From a candidate division NC10 bacterium CSP1-5 (lineage in GTDB: Bacteria; Methylomirabilota; Methylomirabilia; Methylomirabilales; CSP1-5), in assembly GCA_001443495.1 (NCBI GenBank), contig LDXR01000002.1, positions 253,306-317,305 on the forward strand: 64,000 nt of DNA, in the 5' to 3' direction. The notes beneath the pieces are model-generated. The model was given only the letters and a program-made list of their open reading frames with translations. It did no database searches and was not told the DNA's origin. Shown one piece after another: positions 1,849-55,137 of the stretch (position 1 is its first letter; each line of letters begins with the position of its first letter). A program made the position numbers and the translations under genes.

Positions 1849-4008
1849 TTACGTCGTGGTCTCACCTCCGTCTCCGTCTTCAGCCACCGGGAGGGTAACG
1901 GTGAACGTGCTGCCTTTCCCCTCACCTTCCGATTCGATGCAGATTCGCCCCCCATGCATCTCGACGAGGCGCCTGGTGATGACAAGACCCAAACCCGTTC
2001 CTTCGCACTGCGCTCCGTGCGACGCCTCGAGCCTCGTGAAGGGCTGGAACAGCTTTGGCTGATCCTCGGGCCGGATCCCTATGCCCGTGTCCGTTACGGC
2101 GATTTCGACGAAATCGCCGTGGTGTTCATGGTGGGTCCCTTTCTGACCCTGAACCGTCCGGGTGGAGACCGTGACGCGCCCGCCGGGCGGCGTGAATTTC
2201 ACCGCGTTGGACAACAGGTTGGTGAGGATCTGCCTGACCCGGGAGGGATCGGCGTACAGGGAGGGAAGCGATTCGCCAGGCACAGACTCGACGACGAGAT
2301 TCTTCTTACCGGCCTGGTCCCTGATCATCGCGACGGCCTCGGCGATGAGTTCGCCGATCCGTACCGGCTTCCGGTGGAGCTCGACCCGCCCCACCTCGAC
2401 CTTGGAGAGGTCGAGCAGATCATCGATGATCTGGAGAAGGTGGTGGCCGGCCTTGTGGATGTTCTGCACGTGCCGCGCCTGCTTCTCCGTCAGGGGGCCA
2501 AAGTGCTGGTCCCGCAAGACCTCGGAAAAACCGATGATGGTGTTCAAGGGGGTCCGAAGTTCGTGGCTCACATTCGCTAGAAAGGTCGACTTATGGCGGG
2601 AGGCGTCCTCGGCCTCCACCAGGGCCTCTTGGAGGCGGGCATTGGCGGCCTCCACTTCCCTGGTCCGCTCTTCCACTGTGCGCTCCAAGCCCTCGGCGTG
2701 GGACTTCACCTGGGTATAGAGGCGGGCGTTCTCGATGGCGGTCGCGGCATGGGCGCCGATGGCCGAGAGGAGGTTGAGGTCGTCTTGGTCGAACGGGCGG
2801 TCGGTCGGGCCGTTCAGCACCTGGATGACTCCAATCATCTTTTCACGGATCTTGAGCGGGACGCAGAGCGCGGACTTGGTGGTGAACCCGGTGTGATAGT
2901 CGACCCCCTGATAGAACCGGCTGTCCTGTCGCACATCCGGGACGATGAGCGAACACCCGTGCTGGAAGACCCAGCCGGCGATTCCCTTTCCCACCTTCAA
3001 GCGCCGGCCCTTGAGCGCCTCCCCGTGCTCGCCCGATCCGATGCGAAAGACCAATTCGTCCCTCTCGTCATCCTTCAGCAAGAGCGAGCTGGCCTCCACA
3101 CCCATCACGGTCTGGATGCGCTCCATGATGAGGCGCAGAAGCTCGTCAACATCCAGGGTCGCCGTGAGGAGCGCGGAGACGTCATTGAGGGCCGCGAGCT
3201 CCCGAATCCGCAGGAACAGCGGAGTGACATCACGGATCACCAGGAGCTGGCCTGTGGCCCATCCATCGCCGAGAAGATTGGTGATGGTGAGTTGGAGCGT
3301 CCGGTCCCGATACGCATAGACGAGCCGCTCCGTGGCCAACCCCTCCTGGCGGGCCAGGGCCTTCAGGGCGAGGAGTAAGGGATCGGTGTCCCGACCATCC
3401 AGGATGGTCGGGAGCGCCACCCCCACCAGGTTCCGCTCCTGCCATTGAAAGAGCGCGGCGCCTGCCGGATTGGCGTAAAGGATGCGATGGGAGGAGTCCA
3501 GGAAGAGGATCCCTTCACCGAGATTTTGGAAGAGGGCATTGAAGTGGGCGGTGTGGGCGAGCAGCTCGGTAACGATCCTGCGGGGCTGGATCTCTCCGAC
3601 ACCCCGGATCTGCTCGGCCCAGACAGGAGAAGCGGTTCCATCCTCGAACGCCCGGAGGATCGGAAATAGGTCCTGAAGGATCGCATCGATGTTGCGCTTG
3701 GCGATGTAGGCGTCGGCCCTGACGTAGCGAAGCCATTGCGCAGACTCAGGGGCCGTCCCGGTGAGCACGATGATCGGGATGGACCGGGATTTGGGGTCCT
3801 CCTTGAGTTGTTGGCAGACCTCGATCCCGTCCACCTTCGGCATGACGAGATCCAGGACGAGGAAGTCGGGCGCCTCTCTGCGGACTTGATCGAGGGCCTC
3901 CATCCCATCGAATGCGGCTAAGACCTGATAGCCCCGCTCTTCGAGGGCTTCGTGCAGGAGCCCAACTAGGAGGCGGTCGTCATCGGCCACCAGAACCTTT
4001 CGCGGCAC
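1849..4008 (-). CDS. Hybrid sensor histidine kinase: N-terminal REC, PAS, GAF, HisKA, HATPase_c
   Basis: REC 'VLVADDDRLLVGLL..DFLVLDLVMPKVDG', GAF 'VGKGIAGWVFQHG', H-box 'FLANVSHELRTPLNTIIGFSE', ATPase 'TDTGIGIRPEDQPKLFQPF'. Confidence 0.93.
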   Translation of the reverse strand: MPRKVLVADDDRLLVGLLHEALEERGYQVLAAFDGMEALDQVRREAPDFLVLDLVMPKVDGIEVCQQLKEDPKSRSIPIIVLTGTAPESAQWLRYVRADAYIAKRNIDAILQDLFPILRAFEDGTASPVWAEQIRGVGEIQPRRIVTELLAHTAHFNALFQNLGEGILFLDSSHRILYANPAGAALFQWQERNLVGVALPTILDGRDTDPLLLALKALARQEGLATERLVYAYRDRTLQLTITNLLGDGWATGQLLVIRDVTPLFLRIRELAALNDVSALLTATLDVDELLRLIMERIQTVMGVEASSLLLKDDERDELVFRIGSGEHGEALKGRRLKVGKGIAGWVFQHGCSLIVPDVRQDSRFYQGVDYHTGFTTKSALCVPLKIREKMIGVIQVLNGPTDRPFDQDDLNLLSAIGAHAATAIENARLYTQVKSHAEGLERTVEERTREVEAANARLQEALVEAEDASRHKSTFLANVSHELRTPLNTIIGFSEVLRDQHFGPLTEKQARHVQNIHKAGHHLLQIIDDLLDLSKVEVGRVELHRKPVRIGELIAEAVAMIRDQAGKKNLVVESVPGESLPSLYADPSRVRQILTNLLSNAVKFTPPGGRVTVSTRTVQGQKGTHHEHHGDFVEIAVTDTGIGIRPEDQPKLFQPFTRLEASHGAQCEGTGLGLVITRRLVEMHGGRICIESEGEGKGSTFTVTLPVAEDGDGGETTT

Positions 4009-4199
4009 TACCGCACCCTCCCGGGCGCCAAAGGTCTAGGGCCCCCCGGCGTCGGCAGCCAATGCACTCTTGCGCAAAGAGAGCATAATGGCTGCGTGTA
4101 TGTGGTGTAGTCAGGGATTATTTGCAAGGCGCGTGCCGGGGCGCACGAAGCGGAGGCTGGCCGACGCAGCGCTCGCCCAAGAGCGTGAGAAATGGTATC

Positions 4200-4733
4200 T
4201 TAAGGGCCTCGATCCCGGAGGTAGAGCCGGCGAAGCTCGGCGAAGAACGCGAGCGCCTCCCGGGTGCGGTAATCGGGATAGGTCCAGGGAAGGGGTTGGT
4301 ACGCCCCTTGCTCGTATTTCAGATGAAGATCCCCAAAGATCCCCTGGTCCAGATAGATCCGGTGGGCGTAGTCCTTGGTGCTGGCCAGGACGATCTTCGC
4401 CGGGGTAAGATAGCCTGGGTCGACGTTGATCCGGCGCCGCAGAGTCCTCTTGCCGGCAAGGCTGAACTGCCCCTCGATCTGATTGGTCCGATGCTTGGCC
4501 TCCGGAAGTATATTCTGTGCGATCAGGGCCTCGGCGGCCACGAAGCGCCGATAGAGTCCGGATCCCATTTCCGTCTCGTAATACTCGGTGAAGGAGAAGG
4601 GGAAGACCTCGCTCTTCAGGTCGAGGGGACCGAAGGCTGCACTCAGGGACGATTCGACCGCTGCGAGAAGGCCTTCCGGTGCAAGGATGGCGAAGAAGAG
4701 CTTGGCGTTTCGTGCCCCCGGAACTTCTTTCAC
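4200..4733 (-). CDS. DUF4416 family protein
   Basis: 'AKLFFAILAPEGLL..FPFSFTEYYETEMGSGLYRRFVAAEALI..NVDPGYLTPAKIVLASTKDYAHRIYL' matches DUF4416; GTG start at 4733 preferred over the upstream ORF-track start. Confidence 0.85.
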   Translation of the reverse strand: MKEVPGARNAKLFFAILAPEGLLAAVESSLSAAFGPLDLKSEVFPFSFTEYYETEMGSGLYRRFVAAEALIAQNILPEAKHRTNQIEGQFSLAGKRTLRRRINVDPGYLTPAKIVLASTKDYAHRIYLDQGIFGDLHLKYEQGAYQPLPWTYPDYRTREALAFFAELRRLYLRDRGP

Positions 4734-4761
4734 TCCCCTATCCCCCGTGATGCTCGACCGC

Positions 4762-4784
4762 GAACAATATATCCTGAATTGTTC
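4762..4784. promoter_or_regulatory. Perfect inverted repeat GAACAAT-N9-ATTGTTC in divergent intergenic region (possible operator)
   Basis: Direct reading; located between divergent 4733(-) and 4876(+) genes. Confidence 0.35.
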
Positions 4785-4805
4785 CCTCGACCAACTTTTA
4801 GTTTC

Positions 4806-4834
4806 TTGACAGGCTCTTACATGTATGTTATTCA
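4806..4834 (+). promoter_or_regulatory. Sigma70-type promoter TTGACA-17-TATTCA
   Basis: Consensus -35, 17-nt spacer, upstream of amidase gene. Confidence 0.55.
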
Positions 4835-4875
4835 TGCTTGACATGAAGGTTTGCCTCCGAGGGGGACGAGACCGG

Positions 4876-6423
4876 ATGCGTAAGCTATCGGTGATCCTCG
4901 TAGGGATGATGGCGTCCCTCCTCCTCGCCCATCTCGCGTGGCCGGGGGAGATCGAGGTCCTCTACGAAGGGCAATGGAAAATTCTGAAGACCGAACTGGT
5001 GAGCGGTCGGGAGTACGTGCCCCTTGCCCAAGTGGCAAAAATCACCGGAGGAGGGGTTCTAAGAGATGGATTGCGGGTGAACGGTGTCACCTTCCGCTTG
5101 GTGGAAGGCGAGCCGGGGGTCGTCGTCGGGGATACGACCTTTCTTCTCACGGCCCCTCCGGTGAAGCAGCGGGGGGCCTTCTGGGTTCCTGTCGAGTTTC
5201 TCGTCCGGGCGCTCGAGGCCCGGTACGGCGAAGGACGGGTCTTCTGGAATAGATCCGGCCGCGTCGTCTGGCTGGGAAAGGAGCAGTATAACCTTCGCCT
5301 GCTGCGACACCACGCCTATCCCGACTATACCCGATTGGTGATTGAGGCGCTGACACCACTCAATTTCCGCCTGCAGGAGGAGGGTAAGGCTCAGCTCAGC
5401 CTCCGGATCGAGGGCGGCATCCTGTCTCCCATGCTCTCCGAGGCCGTTCGGATCAACGATGGGGTCGTCGAGATGGTGGAGCCGACGCAAGGGCAGGGGG
5501 AGGCGATCTTTCGTATTCAGCGGGATGCCTTCGGGGGCCTGACCCGGACCTTTACCCTCAATAACCCTGAACGGATTGTCGTCGATCTCTACCGGGTCAA
5601 AACAGCCGCCCAGCCCCCGCCCGAGACTCCGCCTGCCCAGCCGTCGTCCCGCGCCCCGTCGGCAGCCCCCGCCACCCCCCAGGTGACGGGTCTCAGGACC
5701 ATCGCCATCGATCCCGGTCACGGCGGGCGGGATACGGGAGCCATCGGACCCAAGGGTCTGCAGGAGAAGGACGTCGTCTTAGACATTGGGCTGAAACTCC
5801 GTCGTCTGATTCAAGAGCGGTTGGGGATCCGGGTGGTCATGACCCGGACGGAGGATGTCTTTGTCCCGCTCGAAGAGCGGACCGCCATTGCCAACCGGGC
5901 CAAGGCCGATTTCTTCATCAGCGTCCATGTCAACGCCGCTCATCGCACCAGGGCTCAGGGGTTCGAGACGTACTTTTTGAGCCGAGAGCCCTCGGACAGC
6001 GCTGCCAGGGCCTCTGCCATCCGGGAGAACCTGTCGGTGAATCTCGGGGGACTCAGGCCGAAAGAGGAAGACGCCCTAAGAGCCATTCTCTGGGACATGG
6101 CCAACACCCTCTATCTGAAGGAGTCTAGCGAGCTGGCGCAGATCCTCCTCGACGAGCTCGACAAGATTCTCCAGGTCGACAACAGAGGGGTGAAGTCGGC
6201 CCCCTTCTTCGTCCTGATGGGGGCCGCCATGCCAGCAGTCCTCTTGGAGGTGGCCTTCATCTCCAACCCGCAGGAGGAAAAGAACCTCCAAGCCGAAGGG
6301 TACAAGGACCGGGTCGCTGAGGCTCTCTATGCGGGGATCGTCCGCTTCAAGGATCGCTACGAGCGACGTCTGGGGCTCGTCCCTTCTGCACCCGGTCGAT
6401 CGGTCCCGACGGCCAAGAGGTAG
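4876..6423 (+). CDS. N-acetylmuramoyl-L-alanine amidase with AMIN/copper amine oxidase-like N-terminal domains
   Basis: 'TIAIDPGHGGRDTGAIGPKGLQEKDVVLDIGLKLRRLI..VVMTRTEDVFVPLEERTAIANRAKADFFISVHVNA' Amidase_3; signal peptide after ATG at 4876. Confidence 0.93.
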   Translation: MRKLSVILVGMMASLLLAHLAWPGEIEVLYEGQWKILKTELVSGREYVPLAQVAKITGGGVLRDGLRVNGVTFRLVEGEPGVVVGDTTFLLTAPPVKQRGAFWVPVEFLVRALEARYGEGRVFWNRSGRVVWLGKEQYNLRLLRHHAYPDYTRLVIEALTPLNFRLQEEGKAQLSLRIEGGILSPMLSEAVRINDGVVEMVEPTQGQGEAIFRIQRDAFGGLTRTFTLNNPERIVVDLYRVKTAAQPPPETPPAQPSSRAPSAAPATPQVTGLRTIAIDPGHGGRDTGAIGPKGLQEKDVVLDIGLKLRRLIQERLGIRVVMTRTEDVFVPLEERTAIANRAKADFFISVHVNAAHRTRAQGFETYFLSREPSDSAARASAIRENLSVNLGGLRPKEEDALRAILWDMANTLYLKESSELAQILLDELDKILQVDNRGVKSAPFFVLMGAAMPAVLLEVAFISNPQEEKNLQAEGYKDRVAEALYAGIVRFKDRYERRLGLVPSAPGRSVPTAKR

Positions 6424-6429
6424 AGGGAA

Positions 6430-7011
6430 ATGGCGCCCCTCCCGGATCGGAGGCTTCTCCTGGGCCTGCTTTTCCTGGTCGTTGTGGTGGGGGCTCTCGG
6501 CTTTCTCCTGGGTCGAGTCCTCGCCCCGCGGGCTCCGGAACCCCGGGACTCTCCCGTTCAGGACGGAGGCGCGGTCGATGTCACCACTCGGCGCATCCGC
6601 CTGTTCTTCGCCGTCCCCAATGCGGACAGGCTTCAGGAAGAAGAGCGGACGATCCCCCGGGCCGCCTCGTTAGTGGAGGAGGCAAAGCGGGCCGTGGCCG
6701 AACTCATCAAGGGGCCCCAGACCGACCTCAACCCGACGATCCCGTCCGGCGTCGGGCTCCTGCAGCTCTATTTTGACGGCCGCGGGACCGCATACGTGGA
6801 CTTCACGCGCGATCTCCAGACAAAACATCCGGGGGGGACCGGCGGTGAGCTCTTGACCATTTACTCTATCGTGGATACGCTCACCGCCAACTTTGGGGAA
6901 ATCCAGCAGGTCAAGCTCCTCGTGGAGGGGTCCGAAATCCTGACGCTGGCCGGGCACATCGACACCCGGCGTCCCTTCAGGCCCCGCTACTCCTTTGAGA
7001 GGGTGCGATAG
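6430..7011 (+). CDS. GerMN domain-containing protein
   Basis: 'RIRLFFAVPNADRLQEEERTIPR..AVAELIKGPQTDLNPTIPSGVGLLQLYFDGRGTAYVDFT' GerM-type. Confidence 0.85.
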   Translation: MAPLPDRRLLLGLLFLVVVVGALGFLLGRVLAPRAPEPRDSPVQDGGAVDVTTRRIRLFFAVPNADRLQEEERTIPRAASLVEEAKRAVAELIKGPQTDLNPTIPSGVGLLQLYFDGRGTAYVDFTRDLQTKHPGGTGGELLTIYSIVDTLTANFGEIQQVKLLVEGSEILTLAGHIDTRRPFRPRYSFERVR

Positions 7012-7764
7012 ATGCGGGCGGGCGGCCGTAAAGATGAGGAGATACGTCCGGTCACGATCACCCGGGGCTATCTCAAGTACGCCGAGGGGTCGGCCTTGAT
7101 CGAAGTCGGGGAGACCAGGATCCTGTGCGCCGCCTCGGTGGAGGAGCGCGTTCCCCAGTTTCTCAAGGACTCGGGTCAGGGGTGGATTACCGCCGAATAC
7201 GGATTGCTCCCCCGCTCCACGACCACGCGCACTCCCCGGGAGGTCGCGGCGGGGCGCGTGAGCGGCCGCACCTCCGAGATCCAACGGCTCGTCGGCCGAT
7301 CGCTCAGAGGTGTGACGGATCTGAGGCGGCTGGGGGAGCGCACGATCGTCATCGACTGCGATGTGATCCAGGCCGATGGCGGGACGCGGACCGCTGCGGT
7401 CACCGCCGGCTTTGTGGCCTTGGCGGATAGCGTGGCTCTGCTCCGGGACCAGGGCAAGATCAAGGAGGACCCCCTGCTGGATTCTGTCGCAGCCATCAGC
7501 GTGGGCATCGTGGAGGGGCGCGTCCTCTTGGATCTCTGCTACGCCGAGGACGCCATCGCCGAAGTGGACATGAACGTAGTGATGACCGGAGCGGGGAGAT
7601 TCGTCGAGGTTCAGGGCACGGCGGAGGAATCCCCCTTCAGTAAGGAGCAGCTCGACACCATGTTGGCCGTGGCGGCCCAGGGAGTACGACAGCTGGTTCG
7701 ACTGCAGCAACGATTGCTCGCGGAGCGGCTCCAGACGGCCAAATTGGCCCTTGACAAGAGCTAA
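7012..7764 (+). CDS. rph: Ribonuclease PH
   Basis: '[62 protein letters not shown]' highly conserved RNase PH. Confidence 0.97.
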
Positions 7765-33486: not shown

Positions 33487-34563
33487 TTGCGAGAGCCTCT
33501 CGTTGAGCGCGTGCTGAGGTTCATTCGAGGGACGACCGACGAGACCTTTGAGGGACTAGCCCTGGAGGTTTTCGGTTTTCAGTACCAGAGGAATCCGGCC
33601 TATCGACGCTTCTGTGGTCAGCGAGGAGTCACGCCGGATACCATAGTCCGTTGGGACGATATTCCTCCAGTCCCCACGGCAGCCTTCAAGTTTCTGGACC
33701 TGACCTGCGCCCCGCCCGAACACGTCTTCCTGACCAGCGGGACGAGTCAGGGTGGAGAGCGGCGAGGGCAACACGGATTCCCCTGGCTCGAGCTTTACGA
33801 TACCTCCCTCCTGAAGAATTTCACTGCCCATCTCCTTCCTGATGGACTGCGGCCTCGGATGCTCATCCTGGCGCCGCCTCCAGACCTTCACCCCGCCTCC
33901 TCCCTGTCCCATATGCTCGAGGGAGTGCGGAAAGCGCACGGAGGCGAAGGGAGCGTATATTTTGTCGGCGAGACGGGGATGAATCTCGCCGGGCTGCTGG
34001 ACAGCTTGCGCGAGGTCGAGTCGCAGCAAGATGCAATCTGCCTTCTCGGTACCTCGTTCGCCTTCGTCCATTTCCTCGACGTGTGTCTTCTGGAGGGATG
34101 GACGTTTCAGCTCCCTGAGGGGAGTCGTCTGATGGATACCGGAGGCTTCAAGGGGCGATCCCGCGAGCTCTCGCGAGAGGAGCTGTTGCGCCTCTATGGA
34201 AAGACTCTTGGGATTCCCGAGGCGCTGTGCATTAACGAGTACGGCATGACCGAGATGGGTTCCCAATTTTACGACAATACCCTGAGGGATCGGTTTCTGG
34301 GGCGCTCGCGCGTTCGGTTCAAAGAGGTCCCTCCCTGGGTGCGGACGCGTATCCTCGATCCCACGACGCTTGAGGAGATCCCGGAAGGCCAGGTGGGGCT
34401 CCTCACCCACTACGACCTGGCCAACTGCGGATCGGTGCTGGCGATCGAAACCGAAGATCTGGGCTACAGGGTCGCAGAGGGGTTCGAGGTGGTTGGCCGA
34501 GCGCCCGGGGCCGAGGCGCGGGGTTGCTCTTTGACCGTCGAGGAGCTTGAAAGAAGGCGATGA
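33487..34563 (+). CDS. LuxE-like acyl-protein synthetase (adenylating)
   Basis: 'FGFQYQRNPAYRRFCGQRGVTPDTIVRWDDIPPVPTAAFKFLDL..VFLTSGTSQGGERRGQH..INEYGMTEMGSQFYDN'; TTG start. Confidence 0.82.
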   Translation: MREPLVERVLRFIRGTTDETFEGLALEVFGFQYQRNPAYRRFCGQRGVTPDTIVRWDDIPPVPTAAFKFLDLTCAPPEHVFLTSGTSQGGERRGQHGFPWLELYDTSLLKNFTAHLLPDGLRPRMLILAPPPDLHPASSLSHMLEGVRKAHGGEGSVYFVGETGMNLAGLLDSLREVESQQDAICLLGTSFAFVHFLDVCLLEGWTFQLPEGSRLMDTGGFKGRSRELSREELLRLYGKTLGIPEALCINEYGMTEMGSQFYDNTLRDRFLGRSRVRFKEVPPWVRTRILDPTTLEEIPEGQVGLLTHYDLANCGSVLAIETEDLGYRVAEGFEVVGRAPGAEARGCSLTVEELERRR

Positions 34564-35933
34564 AGGTCGCTGCCTATCATCTCCCGTCACAGGTCTCGGG
34601 ATGTGAAGTCGAGACCCGCGCGCTTGGTACGGTGACGCTGGAAGTCCCGCGGATCACGCCGACGCTCCTCACCGAAGTGATCGGACATCTGCAGAGGGCC
34701 CGGGAGCGCCTCCGGAAGCGAAAGGGGCAAGAGATCGCCGAGATCCTCGCGGAGGTTTTTCGCCGGTGGCAAGATCGCACCGACCCCTTTCGTCAGGACG
34801 CCGAGGCGGCGCTGCCTGCGACCACCCGATTTTCGCCCGGCATGGTGGCCCACGGCCTGGATCTCTTGTGCGAGGGATACACGGCGGATGCCTTTGACGA
34901 GCTCCTCCAGGGGATCGGGGACGAAGAGGCCTTGGAGGGGTTTGTCCATCTCGGATCCCAACTGAGCCGTGCGTACGGCCCCGCCCTGATCACCCATGTG
35001 CTGGCGGGAAACATCCCCGGGATAGGACTTCCGGGTCTCATCGCCGCCACCCTCCTCGGATCGGCCAGTCTGATCAAGACCGCCTCGGCGGAGCCGCTCT
35101 TTCCCGCGCTGTGGGCGGCTTCGGTCGCTCGGGAGGACCCGGAGATCGGCGAGTGCCTGGCCGTCCTGTGGTGGAGTGGCGGCCGGGCAGATCTGGAAGC
35201 CGTGGCCTTTGATCGCGCCGAGGTGGTCATCGCCTATGGCAGCGAGCAGACGATCCACGAACTTCAGGGGCGCATCCGATGTCGATTCCTGGACCACGGG
35301 CACCGCGTGAGTTTCGGTCTGATTGGCCGGGAGGCTCTGGCGAGGGCAGAGGGGGTGGCGGATCGGGCCGCCTACGATGCCTCCCTCTTCGACCAACAGG
35401 GATGCCTCTCACCGCATCTCTTTTACGTGGAGGAAGGGGGAAGGATGAGCCCGAGGGAGTTTGCCGAGCTGATGGGGGCGGCCATGGCGAGGTGGGCAGA
35501 GCAACTTCCGCCGGGACTGCTCACCGTAGAGGAGGCAGCCACCGTCCGGAGGTTTCGGGCCGGCTATGAAGCCCAGGAGCTGGCCGGAAAAGAGGTCGCC
35601 CTCTTCACGAGTCCGCGGGGGCTCGACTGGACCCTCATCTACGACGCCGATCCGACGTTTATCCCTTCTTGTCTCCACCGAACCGTTTTGATCAAGCCGG
35701 TGGCGGACCTCTTGGAGGTAGGGGGTCTGCTGCGACCGTGGCGGCCGTATCTTCAGGCTGCAGGTGTGGCGGTGATCCCGGAGCGGATCGGGATGCTCGC
35801 GGGTACGTTAGGCCATGCCGGGGTGAACCGGATATGTCCCATTGGCAGGATGCAGGCGCCTCCGCTCACCTGGCACCAAGAGGGACGGCCCCTCTTCCGG
35901 GATCTCTTGCGGTGGACGGATCTCGAAGTGTAG
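34560..35933 (+). CDS. LuxC-like acyl-CoA reductase
   Basis: 'VLAGNIPGIGLPGLIAATLLGSASLIKTASAEPLFPALWAASV..VIAYGSEQTIHELQGRI..DQQGCLSPHLFYVEE' ; 4-nt overlap with LuxE-like gene. Confidence 0.85.
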   Translation: MKVAAYHLPSQVSGCEVETRALGTVTLEVPRITPTLLTEVIGHLQRARERLRKRKGQEIAEILAEVFRRWQDRTDPFRQDAEAALPATTRFSPGMVAHGLDLLCEGYTADAFDELLQGIGDEEALEGFVHLGSQLSRAYGPALITHVLAGNIPGIGLPGLIAATLLGSASLIKTASAEPLFPALWAASVAREDPEIGECLAVLWWSGGRADLEAVAFDRAEVVIAYGSEQTIHELQGRIRCRFLDHGHRVSFGLIGREALARAEGVADRAAYDASLFDQQGCLSPHLFYVEEGGRMSPREFAELMGAAMARWAEQLPPGLLTVEEAATVRRFRAGYEAQELAGKEVALFTSPRGLDWTLIYDADPTFIPSCLHRTVLIKPVADLLEVGGLLRPWRPYLQAAGVAVIPERIGMLAGTLGHAGVNRICPIGRMQAPPLTWHQEGRPLFRDLLRWTDLEV

Positions 35934-36325: not shown

Positions 36326-37504
36326 ATGAGCGGGGTACGGGTACTGGTTGGCACAAGGAAGGGCGCGTTCGTCCTGACGTCGGACGGCAAGCGCCAGCGG
36401 TGGGATGTCAGCGGCCCCCACTTTGCGGGCTGGGAGATCTACCACCTCAAGGGCTCGCCCGTCGACCCGAACCGGCTATATGCGTCGCAGACCAGCGGCT
36501 GGTTCGGGCAGGTGATCCAGCGCTCCAACGACGGCGGCAAAACGTGGGATGCGCCCGGAGGCGGGGTGACGATCTCGCCAGGCGGCATGCCTGCTGGCGA
36601 GAGCAACAAATTCGTCTACGACACTTCTCCGGGAACCGGCAAACCCCTCACGACGCATCAGTGGTATGACGGCACACAGCACCCCTGGGAGTTCAAGCGC
36701 GTCTGGCATCTCGAACCGTCGCTGACCGATCCGGATACCGTTTACGCCGGGGTGGAAGACGCGGCCCTGTTCCGCACGACCGACGGCGGCCGGACGTGGC
36801 AGGAGCTCGCCGGGCTGCGCGGCCACGGCTCGGGGCCCCGGTGGCAGCCGGGCGCCGGCGGGATGTGCCTGCACACGATCCTGCTGGATCCGAGCCATCC
36901 CGAGCGGATCTTCATCGCCGTCTCGGCCGCGGGCGCCTTCCGGACCGACGACGCCGGGAAGACGTGGCGGCCGATAAACCGTGGCCTGCACTCGGAATAC
37001 ATCCCCGACCCGAATGCCGAGGTCGGCCACTGCGTGCACCGCATCGCGATGCACCGGTCGCGCCCGAGCGTGCTTTTCATGCAGAAGCACTGGGACGTCG
37101 TGCGCAGCGACGACGCCGGCGAGTCGTGGCAGGAGGTCAGCGGAAACCTGCCGACCGACTTCGGGTTCCCGATCGACGTGCACGCGCACGAGCCGGAAAC
37201 CATCTACGTCGTCCCCATCAAGAGCGACTCGGAGCATTATCCGCCCGAGGGTAAGCTGCGCGTCTACCGCAGCCGCACGGGCGGACACGAGTGGGAAGCT
37301 CTCACGAAAGGGCTGCCGCAGAGCGACTGCTACGTGAACGTGCTGCGGGACGCGATGGCCGTTGACTCGCTTGATTCGTGCGGCGTGTACTTCGGCACCA
37401 CCGGCGGCCAGGTGTACGCATCGGCCGACAGCGGCGACACATGGGCGCCCATCGTCCGGGATCTTCCGGCCGTCCTGTCCGTCGAGGTCCAGACAGTGCC
37501 ATGA
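36326..37504 (+). CDS. BNR/sortilin-type beta-propeller protein (exo-alpha-sialidase-like fold)
   Basis: Repeated 'S.DGGKTW', '[11 protein letters not shown]', '[11 protein letters not shown]', '[11 protein letters not shown]', '[11 protein letters not shown]'. Confidence 0.88.
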
Positions 37505-37998: not shown

Positions 37999-38139
37999 TC
38001 AGGTTCACTCTCTATCCGCCGCCTCATCCCTTACGCCTGATCGCAAAATAGTTGACACCCCATAGGGACGCAAGGGTACACTACACCTTCCCGAGGGACG
38101 AGTCACTCATTTGTCACCTATCGTTCGTGAGGGGAGCCT

Positions 38140-40398
38140 GTGCGAATCACGTTTCGGATTGTCCTCTCAATCATTGTCGTCGTCAGCGCCATTGCCTTTC
38201 TGCTCACTCTTTGGCAGGTACAGCAGGAGAAGGAAGGGTTGAGGCGGGATCTCGATCGCCGCACCTCACTCCTCGCCGAGAGCCTCCGGGAGACGATTGA
38301 GCCTTTGGTGGGGCAGCCTCAGACCGCACGCATTCAGCAAATTGTCGAAAAGTTCGGCAACCGGGAGAAACTGGCTGGAGTCGCTGTGTACGATGCCAAG
38401 GACCATCTCATCGCCATCACACCGGCGCTGGCTCCTCAGCTCCCGACGATACCCTCGTTGATCCCTGAAGCCATGAATGCAGATCGCGGCACGGGAGGTT
38501 TTGTCCACATTGGGAACACGAGGATGTACCTCTATGCCCTTTCCTTCCACCGCGAAGCTGTTGTCACCGGCGCCGTGGTCATCTTCTACGATGCGACGTA
38601 CCTCCAGGATCATCTCTCCCGCATCTGGAAAAACAACTTCGTCGGGTTTCTGGTCCAGGCGCTCTTGATCTCCCTCACCACGCTCTTTGTTGTCCGTTGG
38701 AGCATTGTCGGGTCAATCGCCAAGATGGCGGAGTGGATGAAGAGGCTCCGCACCGATACGACCGCCGAACCACTTCACTTCCCTGATGGGGATATGTTTG
38801 AGCCGTTGACAAAAGAGGTCGCCCAGATGGCAAGAAGCGTCCTGGCGGCGCGGGCGTCCGCCGAGGAGGAAGCAAGGCTGAGACAGGCTGCAGAGTCTCT
38901 CTGGACTCCAGCACGGCTCAAAGAGCATGTGCGGACCCTCCTGTCCGAGAAATCTCTCTTTGTTATCTCGAACCGCGAGCCGTACATTCATGTCAGGAAA
39001 GGCACGCAGATCGAGTGTGTGGTTCCTCCAAGCGGTTTGGTGACGGCTTTAGAGCCAATTCTGAAGGTGTGCGGGGGCGTGTGGATTGCCCACGGCAGCG
39101 GCGATGCAGACCGCGAGGTCGCAGATCAGCAGGACAAGCTTCGGGTGCCCACCGAGGATCCTCAATATGTCCTGAAAAGGGTCTGGCTCACCAAGGGAGA
39201 AGAGAAGGGATACTACTACGGATTTTCGAATGAAGGTCTCTGGCCCCTCTGTCATATCGCCCATACCCGACCGATCTTCCGTATCGATGATTGGGAGTAT
39301 TATCAAATTGTGAACACGAAATTCGCAGAAGCCACTCTAGCAGAGCTCGAGGGCATCGATGAACCCGTCGTCCTGGTCCAGGATTATCACTTTGCGCTCC
39401 TTCCCAGATTGATCAAAGAAAGACGTCCGGATGCCAGGGTCGGCCTCTTCTGGCACATCCCGTGGCCCAATCCCGAGTCCTTTAGCATCTGCCCGTGGCA
39501 ACGAGAGCTTGTTCATGGAATGCTGGGGGCAGACCTCATCGGTTTTCACATCCAGTTCCATTGCAACAACTTCCTGGATACCGTCGATCGGACACTGGAA
39601 TCCCGCATCGTCTGGGAACACTTCGCGGTCAGGCGAGGACGGCAGACCACGTATGTGAAACCATTTCCGATCAGCATCGCATTCCCTGACCATGGTGAGG
39701 CACAGTTGATGAAGCCACCGGCAACGATCAGCAAGGGAAGTCTCCTCGGAGGCCTCGGCGTTAAAGCCAGATTTCTGGGGGTCGGTGTGGACCGTCTCGA
39801 CTACACCAAAGGGATCTTGGAACGTTTGAGGGCCGTTGAGCGCTTCTTGGAAAAATACCCCACCTACCTCAATGAATTCACCTTTGTCGAGCTCGGCGCA
39901 CCAAGTCGGACATCCATCAAACACTACCACGACTTGATCGCCGAGGTGGAGGCTGAGTGTGACAGAATCAACTGGCGCTTTCAAACCGAGGAGTGGAAGC
40001 CAATCATTCTCTTGAAAAAACATCATAGCCATGAAGAAATCGCACCTTTCTACGAAGCCGCCGATGTCTGCCTCGTGACATCTTTACACGACGGGATGAA
40101 CCTCGTGGCGAAAGAATACGTTGCCGCACGGGAGGATGAGCAGGGGGTGCTGATCCTCAGTAGATTTACGGGAGCTTCACGAGAGTTGCGAGACGCCCTG
40201 ATTGTCAATCCGTACAACATTGAGCAGATGGCAGAGGCGATTCGCTCGGCCGTGGAAATGGATGCCGAAGAGCAGCAGGCTCGGATGCGCAAGATGCGGC
40301 ATGTCCTCAAAGAGCAAAACGTCTATCGCTGGGCTGCGAACTTGATTACAGAACTTGCCCAAATACGTATCGAAAAAGGTTCTATCGCCAAGTCGTAG
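38140..40398 (+). CDS. Membrane-anchored sensor (TM-periplasmic-TM-HAMP-like) fused to trehalose-6-phosphate synthase (GT20)
   Basis: N-term TM 'FRIVLSIIVVVSAIAFLLTLW', second TM 'FVGFLVQALLISLTTLFVVRW', then GT20 'VGVDRLDYTKGILERLRAVERFL..LVTSLHDGMNLVAKEYVAAR'. Confidence 0.9.
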   Translation: MRITFRIVLSIIVVVSAIAFLLTLWQVQQEKEGLRRDLDRRTSLLAESLRETIEPLVGQPQTARIQQIVEKFGNREKLAGVAVYDAKDHLIAITPALAPQLPTIPSLIPEAMNADRGTGGFVHIGNTRMYLYALSFHREAVVTGAVVIFYDATYLQDHLSRIWKNNFVGFLVQALLISLTTLFVVRWSIVGSIAKMAEWMKRLRTDTTAEPLHFPDGDMFEPLTKEVAQMARSVLAARASAEEEARLRQAAESLWTPARLKEHVRTLLSEKSLFVISNREPYIHVRKGTQIECVVPPSGLVTALEPILKVCGGVWIAHGSGDADREVADQQDKLRVPTEDPQYVLKRVWLTKGEEKGYYYGFSNEGLWPLCHIAHTRPIFRIDDWEYYQIVNTKFAEATLAELEGIDEPVVLVQDYHFALLPRLIKERRPDARVGLFWHIPWPNPESFSICPWQRELVHGMLGADLIGFHIQFHCNNFLDTVDRTLESRIVWEHFAVRRGRQTTYVKPFPISIAFPDHGEAQLMKPPATISKGSLLGGLGVKARFLGVGVDRLDYTKGILERLRAVERFLEKYPTYLNEFTFVELGAPSRTSIKHYHDLIAEVEAECDRINWRFQTEEWKPIILLKKHHSHEEIAPFYEAADVCLVTSLHDGMNLVAKEYVAAREDEQGVLILSRFTGASRELRDALIVNPYNIEQMAEAIRSAVEMDAEEQQARMRKMRHVLKEQNVYRWAANLITELAQIRIEKGSIAKS

Positions 40399-40413: not shown

Positions 40414-41208
40414 ATGCACTATCTGTGGAGCCGATGGCCTCAGATACAGAAGCAAATTCGCTCACGGAAAAACCTGCTTTTCCTCCTTGACTACGACGGT
40501 ACGCTCACCCTCATTGCCCCAACACCCCGACAAGCCAGGCTCAGCCCTCAGACGAAGCTGGTGCTGCGAAGGCTTTCACGGAAATCCAACGTTACCCTCG
40601 CTGTCATCAGCGGCCGAGCGCTGGCTGATCTGAAGAGGATGGTTGGATTGAGACATCTCGCCTATGCAGGGAATCACGGTTTGGAGTTGTGGTGGCACAA
40701 TAAACGACGGACAGTGAAGATTCCAAGGGCCTTGAAAGAGGCCCTCTCCGAAGTCACACGGATTCTCAGCAAAGTCGGTCGTGAGTTCGACGGGGTGATT
40801 ACGGAAAACAAAGGCCTCTCGTTGAGTCTCCATTACCGCTTGGTAAAGGCAAACGGGCTTACCCACCTGAAAAAAGAATTCTGGAATCATGTCATGCCTT
40901 TTGTCCGTTCCGGCACAATTCGTGTGGTGAAAGGGAAAAGGGTCTTTGAGGTTCGTCCCAATGTGCCGTGGACCAAAGGTCACGCTGCCCTCTGGTTCAT
41001 GAAAAAGCTCGCCAGCCCATCGTGTCTGCCCATCTACATTGGAGATGACCAGACAGATGAGGATGCGTTTAGCGTGTTGAAGAGAGGGATTACCATTCGA
41101 GTGGGTGAGCATCATAGATCCGAAGCAAAATACTATGTCCGACGTGTAGGGGAAGTCGTCCGATTTCTGGAATGGGTGGCAGATGAGCATGCGCGCCGTG
41201 ATCACTGA
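40414..41208 (+). CDS. otsB: Trehalose-6-phosphate phosphatase
   Basis: 'LLFLLDYDGTLTLIAPTPRQARLS..AVISGRALADLKRMVGLRHLAYAGNHGLEL..IYIGDDQTDEDAF' HAD motifs. Confidence 0.95.
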   Translation: MHYLWSRWPQIQKQIRSRKNLLFLLDYDGTLTLIAPTPRQARLSPQTKLVLRRLSRKSNVTLAVISGRALADLKRMVGLRHLAYAGNHGLELWWHNKRRTVKIPRALKEALSEVTRILSKVGREFDGVITENKGLSLSLHYRLVKANGLTHLKKEFWNHVMPFVRSGTIRVVKGKRVFEVRPNVPWTKGHAALWFMKKLASPSCLPIYIGDDQTDEDAFSVLKRGITIRVGEHHRSEAKYYVRRVGEVVRFLEWVADEHARRDH

Positions 41209-53283: not shown

Positions 53284-55137
53284 ATGAAGAGCCAGGCCAG
53301 AAAATCGGGTTCCCGCTTCTACGAGCTCTACTGCATCGCCTGCGGCAGACGGGTTCGCGAGGAGGAGTCGACCACCCGCTGCCCGAGCTGCCGAAGCCCC
53401 CTGGACGTTCGGTTCGACTACGACTACATCCACTCCCGGCTCAACCGGTACTCCCTCAGAAATTCCCCCATCAAGGCGATGAAGTATCTCGATTTCTATC
53501 CCATCGAGAACCTGAATCTGGTGGTATCGCTGGATGAAGGGGGGACGCCGCTCTACCGCTGCCGGAGGCTGGGAGAGACAACCGGCTTTTCTCGCCTCTA
53601 CATCAAGAACGAGGGCGCCAATCCGACGGGGGTCTTCAAGGACCGCGGGAGCATGGTGGAGCTCTCGAAGGCCAAGGAGCACGGCGCGAAGGCGATCTGT
53701 GTGGCGTCCACCGGGAACATGGCCGCCTCCGTCGCCGCGTATGCCTCCATCGCTATGTTGCCCTGCTATGTGCTGGTGCCCGAGGGAACCGCCATCGGGA
53801 AGATGGCGCAGGCCTTGAGCTATGGGGCGCGGCTTCTCCAGATCCGGGGGACGTACAATGACGCCTTTCGTCTCACCGAGGAGATGAGTGAGCGGTACCA
53901 TTTCTACCTGGCCGGGGACTACGCCTTTCGCGTCGAAGGACAGAAGTCCCAGGCCTTCGAGATCATCGAGCAGCTTGACTGGCAGGTCCCGGCGGTCGTG
54001 ATTGTTCCCATGGGTTTTGGGACCAACATCGCCGCCCTCTGGAAGGGGTTCAAGGAGTTTTACGACATGGGGCTGACCGACCGCCTCCCTCGCCTGATCG
54101 GGGTTCAGCCCGAAGGCTGCAGCCCCATCGTCGCCGCGTTCAACCAGGGGCAGGAGAAGATTACGCCGGTGGAGCGGCCCGACACCATCTGCTCCGCGGT
54201 GGCGGCGGGGGACCCCCTGGATGGGCCCAAGGCGTTGCGCGCCATCCGGGAGTCGGGGGGGTGTGCGCTCAGCATGAGCGACGGAGAGATCCTCGAAGCC
54301 CAACAGTTGCTGGCCCGGCTCGAATCGATCTTCGTCGAGCCGGCGGGTGCCCTCCCCATCGCCGCTTTGCAGCCCTTGCTCGCGACCGCACGGGTACAGG
54401 CGGACGAAGTGGTCGTCTGTCTTGCTACCGGCAACGGCCTCAAGGACCCCCGGTCGGCGCTCAGGGTCCTCCCGTCGCCGGCAGCCATTGAGCCCTCCAT
54501 TCAGGAGGTGGACAAGTTCCTCAAGCTCAAGCTCTACGAGATCCGGGCCGCCGGGGCCAAGAACGGCGACCGGAACCTCTTTACCGAGGTCCCCTCGAAA
54601 GGGGCGCTGTCCGAGCTGGTCAACACGGAGTTCGGCATCCGCCTCACCCCCGACTACGCCCAGCGGGCCCTGGGCCTCGTGGAGGATTTCGTCAACAAGG
54701 GAAAGCCGGTCACCAAGGCGGATCTCCAGTACATCCTGGAGACCACGCTCAAGCGTGCATCCGGCGAGGGGGTCCTCAAGGTGGAGGACTTCCAGGTCAC
54801 GACGACGCTCCACGGTCAGGCTCAGGCCAAGGTCTGGGTGAGCTTCGATGGGGAGCGGCTCGAATCGAGCGGAGCGGGGGTCGGGCCGGTCGATGCGGTG
54901 ATCAGCGCCCTCAAGGCAGCGGCCAGCAGCCGGGGGCGGATCTTCTTCGAGTTGATCGATTACCAGGTGGCGATCAACGCCCCAGGGACCGATGCCTCGG
55001 TGGAAACGACGCTGGTCCTGAAGGACGCCAAGGGGAACCGGATCGTTGCCACTGGGACCTCTCCCGATATCATCGTGGCCTCAGTCCAGGCCTTCGTGGA
55101 CGGCTACAACCTCCTGTGGGCCCGCCAGCAATCCTAG
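53284..55137 (+). CDS. thrC: Threonine synthase fused to C-terminal LeuA/CimA-type allosteric (dimer) domain
   Basis: Zn ribbon + PLP 'YIKNEGANPTGVFKDRGSMVELSKAKEHGA'; C-term 'GQAQAKVWVSFDGERLESSGAGVGPVDAVISALKAA..ELIDYQVAINAPGTDASVETTLVLKDAKGNRIVATGTSPDIIVASVQAFVDGYN'. Confidence 0.9.
   Translation: MKSQARKSGSRFYELYCIACGRRVREEESTTRCPSCRSPLDVRFDYDYIHSRLNRYSLRNSPIKAMKYLDFYPIENLNLVVSLDEGGTPLYRCRRLGETTGFSRLYIKNEGANPTGVFKDRGSMVELSKAKEHGAKAICVASTGNMAASVAAYASIAMLPCYVLVPEGTAIGKMAQALSYGARLLQIRGTYNDAFRLTEEMSERYHFYLAGDYAFRVEGQKSQAFEIIEQLDWQVPAVVIVPMGFGTNIAALWKGFKEFYDMGLTDRLPRLIGVQPEGCSPIVAAFNQGQEKITPVERPDTICSAVAAGDPLDGPKALRAIRESGGCALSMSDGEILEAQQLLARLESIFVEPAGALPIAALQPLLATARVQADEVVVCLATGNGLKDPRSALRVLPSPAAIEPSIQEVDKFLKLKLYEIRAAGAKNGDRNLFTEVPSKGALSELVNTEFGIRLTPDYAQRALGLVEDFVNKGKPVTKADLQYILETTLKRASGEGVLKVEDFQVTTTLHGQAQAKVWVSFDGERLESSGAGVGPVDAVISALKAAASSRGRIFFELIDYQVAINAPGTDASVETTLVLKDAKGNRIVATGTSPDIIVASVQAFVDGYNLLWARQQS

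Follow-up and report, generated by a model that had tools for sequence, protein, structure and literature searches.

A transmembrane sensor module fused to a trehalose-6-phosphate synthase-like GT20 enzyme in Methylomirabilota and other bacterial phyla

The locus was analysed within a 64,000-nt stretch of contig LDXR01000002.1 from candidate division NC10 bacterium CSP1-5; the whole stretch is referred to as the window. A single open frame on its forward strand encodes a predicted membrane sensor module joined to a GT20 glycosyltransferase, and otsB follows in an operon-like arrangement. The features, in window coordinates, were as follows.

38129-38136 (+): Shine-Dalgarno-like GAGGGGAG 5′ of the GTG start, by direct sequence reading
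38140-40398 (+): whole fused gene, sensor module plus GT20; single open frame, 752 aa, GTG start, TAG stop
38152-38220 (+): TM helix 1, residues ~5-27; Kyte-Doolittle 19-residue mean up to 2.8, model helix 2-56, predicted cytoplasmic N-terminus
38221-38604 (+): predicted extracytoplasmic Cache/PDC-like sensor domain, residues ~28-155; Foldseek, sCache_3_2 in relatives, YycG profile match
38632-38700 (+): TM helix 2, residues ~165-187; hydropathy, model helix 153-205
38701-38895 (+): degenerate HAMP-like linker and coil, residues ~188-252; profile alignment to the Pfam HAMP of kinase homologues
38896-38955 (+): junction helix with invariant W255 (S-L-W-T-P-x-x-L-K); alignment, unfused relatives L130 and L132
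38956-40359 (+): GT20 catalytic domain, residues 273-740; PF00982 E = 7e-115, catalytic residues intact
40414-41208 (+): otsB, trehalose-6-phosphate phosphatase (HAD), 15 nt downstream; PF02358 E = 3e-44, TIGR00685 160.7 bits against a cut-off of 68

The window also holds, upstream of the fused gene, a beta-propeller protein of the BNR/Sortilin-Vps10 type (36326-37504, +), a LuxE-like acyl-protein synthetase followed by a LuxC-like acyl-CoA reductase, together a fatty-acid reductase pair (33487-35933, +), and a 617-aa ORF with an unusual pairing of a pyridoxal-phosphate-dependent enzyme (PALP) and a LeuA allosteric (dimerisation) domain (53284-55137, +).

The initial annotation had described a sensor front end joined directly to GT20 with otsB next, and this arrangement was found in one intact ORF: no internal stop was present, and the frame stayed open across the sensor/GT20 junction. 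Two separate genes would give a different picture, in which translation of the real enzyme begins inside the frame, around residue 255, next to an N-terminal ORF that is either separate or decayed. Such a start would agree with the free GT20 relatives, whose first residue corresponds to ~250-258 of the fused protein. However, in alignment with full-length homologues, the first in-frame start of the fused ORF fell on their conserved first Met, and synonymous changes dominated the N-terminal part. Compared with a same-genus orthologue, residues 2-268 had a dN/dS of 0.17 (ectodomain 0.28, TM2-HAMP 0.09) and GT20 one of 0.12, and TM1 showed no amino-acid change; the sensor is thus under purifying selection. 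No Shine-Dalgarno sites were found at internal start codons near the junction, and the same fusion recurred in 80 independent public loci (of at least 563 relatives). An internal start is thus extremely improbable. The sensor-GT20 fusion was confirmed as genuine; an artefact, a frameshift or two ORFs were ruled out by conservation, dN/dS and the start site. A scan for a sigma-70 promoter upstream of the fused gene found none. The full-length AlphaFold2 model (63-sequence alignment, single chain, mean pLDDT 85) placed helix 2-56, an alpha/beta domain at 62-151, helix 153-205 and a coil helix at 221-251 before the GT-B enzyme, with a pTM of 0.64 and an uncertain relative domain orientation.

A survey of the distribution of the fusion, which had been suggested with the initial annotation, gave a wide spread. 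The 80 loci were kept from the relatives confirmed by a scan of public genome contigs. The fusion was full length in all 80, with alignments that start at or close to residue 1 and run to ~745, and occurred in at least 10 phyla, with Acidobacteriota, Elusimicrobiota, Nitrospirota, Omnitrophota, Bacteroidota, Myxococcota, Verrucomicrobiota, Thermodesulfobacteriota, Methylomirabilota/Rokubacteria, Edwardsbacteria and Daviesbacteria among the carriers. Full-length fused genes were present in 50 of 95 Methylomirabilota genomes, 19 of 118 from Nitrospirota, 18 of 198 from Acidobacteriota, 11 of 100 from Elusimicrobiota and 4 of 148 from Bacteroidota. A maximum-likelihood tree, built quickly from 82 GT20 domains, placed all sensor-fused sequences in one clade (SH-aLRT 95), which holds one possible loss (L160, on a long branch); as judged from these sequences, the tree shows a single origin of the fusion. 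The fused clade lay inside a superclade (support 100) that also includes free enzymes and that a branch of 0.72 sets apart from canonical OtsA. Within the window's own genus, G001, G003, G004 and G006 carry a free GT20 from another branch of the superclade.

Hydropathy and AlphaFold2 agreed on two TM helices around a ~130-aa extracytoplasmic domain, as initially annotated. Because OtsA matches swamped the full-length fold search, the N-terminus was modelled and searched alone (model pLDDT 84.5). With Foldseek it matched the WalK model 9a5d, TM2 and the HAMP region included, across 260 columns (query TM-score 0.77, E = 1.8e-10), and also the ectodomain crystal structures of WalK (4ywz), KinD (4jgo) and DcuS (3by8). 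The YycG ectodomain 5is1 was matched in a profile search of PDB sequences (E = 0.002), and the NCBIfam DgcN model matched residues 12-94 of the window protein (E = 0.0016). The HMM domain search proposed earlier recovered Glyco_transf_20 (PF00982), whereas no Pfam HAMP or Cache match rose above cut-off in the window protein itself; among 60 relatives, sCache_3_2 was detected in 13, and dCache, Cache_WalK or HAMP in a few. Moreover, a profile of residues 1-262 matched ~490-510-aa proteins in relatives, with the whole module covered and E down to 8.6e-31, and those matches tested by Pfam were HAMP-HisKA-HATPase_c histidine kinases. A kinase with the same sensor was searched for in the window's own genome and none was found. 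Since the Pfam Cache matches in relatives, the WalK-type fold and the profile matches to kinases converge, the N-terminal module is, on homology and predicted fold, a histidine-kinase input module. The earlier reading of a sensor-kinase-type front end is thereby strongly supported, also by the deep conservation of the fusion. A chance membrane-like N-terminus was ruled out by the kinase homology and the fold.

The linker behind TM2 had been claimed to be HAMP-like. That description held, but the linker is degenerate, and its kinship is visible only through family members, the histidine-kinase homologues and the fold. Pfam HAMP was detected in 2 of 60 relatives, with a best E of 3.5e-5. In the alignment of relatives, P192 was present in at least 90% and E226 was invariant, both of them HAMP hallmarks. 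At the junction, the unfused GT20 relatives carry a similar W-T/N helix (L132 opens MHQWTANAVKELV). Because these free enzymes begin at this point, the sensor is, by alignment, joined cleanly at the natural N-terminus of the enzyme via the HAMP coil, like receptor-effector fusions.

The enzyme part superposed on OtsA structures with a target TM-score of ~0.9 (Foldseek; 5jio, E = 2.4e-38). The glucose-6-phosphate- and UDP-glucose-binding residues of E. coli OtsA were taken from PMC1769515 and the mycobacterial equivalents from PMC6879718, and the check covered those listed residues that could be placed in the alignment. The equivalents of R9, G22, Y76, W85, D130, H154, R262, K267, R300, D361 and E369 were present in 81 of 81 fused sequences, and the catalytic and substrate-binding residues were likewise intact in all lineages of the GT20 superclade. 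A loss of catalytic residues, which would have spoken against the original reading, was therefore not observed, and a pseudo-enzyme was ruled out. GgpS identity was ruled out by the TIGR02398 score (310 bits, equivalog cut-off 569), and a bifunctional TPSP by the separate OtsB ORF and the lack of a TPP domain in the same chain.

Two tested features of OtsA were absent. The TIGR02400 (OtsA) score was 428 bits, below the equivalog cut-off of 565, and the GW[PS]G motif near the acceptor site was altered: its Trp was found in 9 of 10 canonical sequences, while the fused sequences had His in 33 of 45 and never Trp. The residue concerned is the second Trp of E. coli GLWFGWSG (W41), replaced across the fused clade by His, Ser, Gln, Tyr or Ala. 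The first (W38) is conserved, and ‘Trp40’ in PMC1769515 may refer to either of the two. In addition, the Arg before D361 (R360) is His in the fused clade. Because of the two absent features, the protein was filed as a divergent, sensor-fused T6P-synthase-like enzyme. Trehalose-6-phosphate is its probable product, with glucose-6-phosphate as the presumed acceptor; the product is likely rather than certain because the acceptor-side Trp is replaced and the NCBIfam scores reach neither the OtsA nor the GgpS cut-off. These same features, together with the R360 change and the long branch separating the clade from canonical OtsA, would also fit an enzyme that uses another phosphorylated acceptor or nucleotide-sugar and makes some other compatible solute, with the sensor still in control. 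On the other hand, all tested residues contacting the phosphate, the donor or the site of catalysis were invariant (roles from PMC1769515 and PMC6879718), the OtsA model scored higher than GgpS, and otsB or TreT is adjacent in most listed loci, so that a product other than T6P appears improbable.

The gene neighbourhood was examined in the same 80 listed loci. The otsB gene was adjacent to the fused gene in 52 of them, and a TreT-type trehalose synthase plus DUF5752 stood beside it in 45, a count in which the DUF5752 gene lies off the contig in a few cases. Examples of the latter pair beside a sensor-fused tps were as follows.

L036, 6421-8512: DUF5752 and TreT
L034, 6662-8564: DUF5752 and TreT

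These neighbours support trehalose as the likely end product. Both TreT and DUF5752 are absent from the window's own genome, and neither is therefore essential to its system. DUF5752 has the look of an uncharacterised protein of trehalose clusters, and the open-licence literature yielded no paper naming it. In Nitrospirota loci L179-L183, DUF5752 and TreT directly precede a GT20-OtsB fusion. Histidine kinases with the same module were also found nearby: four order-mates (L117-L120) have one close downstream of the fused tps-otsB genes, and two other class members (L121 and L126) have one in the same cluster as these genes. The neighbourhood shared by the kinase and the fused tps hints at, but does not prove, an origin of the fusion by recombination between neighbouring genes.

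Other members of the GT20 superclade were associated with different partners. In an Acidobacteriota group, GT20 forms the C-terminal part of a fusion with a Na+/H+ exchanger (PF00999, E = 1.5e-21 and 2.3e-20), and elsewhere a receiver gene precedes an unfused enzyme.

L149 (G217:C96), 4795-7500 (-): Na+/H+ exchanger-GT20 fusion, PF00999 and PF00982 in one frame
L150 (G161:C21), 3507-6263 (-): Na+/H+ exchanger-GT20 fusion, PF00999 and PF00982 in one frame
L132, 513-1139: CheY-like receiver gene directly upstream of an unfused superclade GT20 at 1163-2650
L130, 3525-4058: CheY-like receiver gene directly upstream of an unfused superclade GT20
L126, 5498-5995: CheY-like receiver gene directly upstream of an unfused superclade GT20

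The pairs of a receiver gene and a free GT20 suggest a two-component route to the same enzyme. The unfused GT20 behind the receiver gene in L126 looks broken. Similarly long GT20 frames, Pfam-checked in part, were seen in 6 further genomes of the exchanger-fusion clade.

The exchanger-tethered lineage means that membrane placement itself may be selected, and it bears on the principal alternative, a membrane anchor: the sensor-derived segment would no longer signal and would tether trehalose synthesis to the inner membrane, for example near an exporter or a metabolite source. The HAMP is degenerate, the extracytoplasmic domain is sequence-variable and no recognised ligand-binding motif was found in it; it could therefore be a passive anchor. 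The osmotic, desiccation or membrane signal put forward in the initial annotation is likewise unsupported by this domain, which showed nothing specific to osmolality. However, one or two helices would suffice for an anchor, whereas a folded ectodomain of ~130 residues was kept in at least 10 phyla at the dN/dS of 0.28, the HAMP hallmarks P192 and E226 were conserved, and the HAMP-coil geometry was retained in the AlphaFold2 model. We regard a mere anchor as unlikely.

A one-component transmembrane receptor with a biosynthetic glycosyltransferase (GT20) as its output is the reading we consider rather likely. It is natural to infer allosteric control of the enzyme by an extracytoplasmic signal, and the conserved sensor-HAMP-enzyme order agrees with this. 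In the proposed mechanism, the extracytoplasmic Cache-type domain, of the histidine-kinase sort, would sense an external or envelope cue that moves TM2; the degenerate HAMP and coil would relay the change across the membrane, probably as a dimer, and the sensor would thus bias the open-closed cycle of the cytoplasmic GT20. The product of the enzyme would be a phosphorylated disaccharide, most likely trehalose-6-phosphate, and OtsB, encoded by the adjacent gene, would dephosphorylate it to trehalose. In this scheme the product, the dimeric coupling through HAMP, the gating by a signal and the nature of that signal are all putative. Points against the receptor reading are the degenerate HAMP below cut-off, the variable ectodomain, the replaced GW[PS]G Trp and R360, the NCBIfam score under the OtsA cut-off, the uncertain domain orientation in the full-length model, and the unfused GT20 of some congeners.

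The window enzyme was compared with known systems. It shares with OtsA (GT20; E. coli 1GZ5 and M. thermoresistibile 5JIJ) the GT-B fold, the catalytic and substrate-phosphate residues and the otsB partner. To our knowledge, known OtsAs are soluble, whereas the window enzyme is preceded by a ~255-residue transmembrane sensor and carries AHGSG in place of GW[PS]G and HDGMNL in place of RDGMNL. The TM1-Cache-TM2-HAMP input module resembles, in fold and profile homology, that of the histidine kinases WalK/YycG, DcuS and KinD, but the window protein has no HisKA/HATPase_c and carries a glycosyltransferase as output. DgcN/YfiN (CHASE8-HAMP-GGDEF) and other one-component receptors have a similar front end and an enzyme output. 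Their outputs make or break signalling molecules, whereas that of the window protein is predicted to be a compatible-solute biosynthetic enzyme. In the msc-gt-tpsp complex of Thermoproteus tenax, the gene for a T6P synthase is linked to those for a GT4 glycosyltransferase and a putative mechanosensitive channel, and synthesis is controlled at the protein level; unlike in the window gene, TPS there is a soluble fusion with TPP that the GT activates in trans, with no sensor fusion (PMC3634074). OtsA of Arthrobacter, an osmotic stress sensor, is tied to osmotic sensing, but it is soluble and self-assembling, acts in morphogenesis and lacks a receptor domain (PMC5685639).

Descriptions of a membrane-bound or HAMP-linked T6P synthase were searched for in the open-licence literature and none was found. 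Quite possibly, though we put this forward tentatively, the fused proteins form an undescribed, widespread class of transmembrane receptors in which Cache-HAMP switches compatible-solute synthesis, one of several independent sensing wirings of one GT20 clade (receptor fusion, Na+/H+-exchanger fusion and receiver-domain partner). Bacterial HAMP-linked transmembrane receptors are known to drive signalling outputs, namely kinases, methyl-accepting domains, cyclases and phosphodiesterases. If such a receptor is wired to a metabolic glycosyltransferase, the response would need no transcription step. The family is large, and because the isolate Niastella soli is among its carriers, enzyme-level gating of osmolyte synthesis is directly testable. 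The conservation of the fusion across at least 10 phyla suggests that cells may trigger protectant synthesis by sensing their surroundings without a gene-expression step; if true, this would account for how soil and groundwater bacteria that grow slowly and are mostly uncultured could respond to a shift with a protectant made within seconds.
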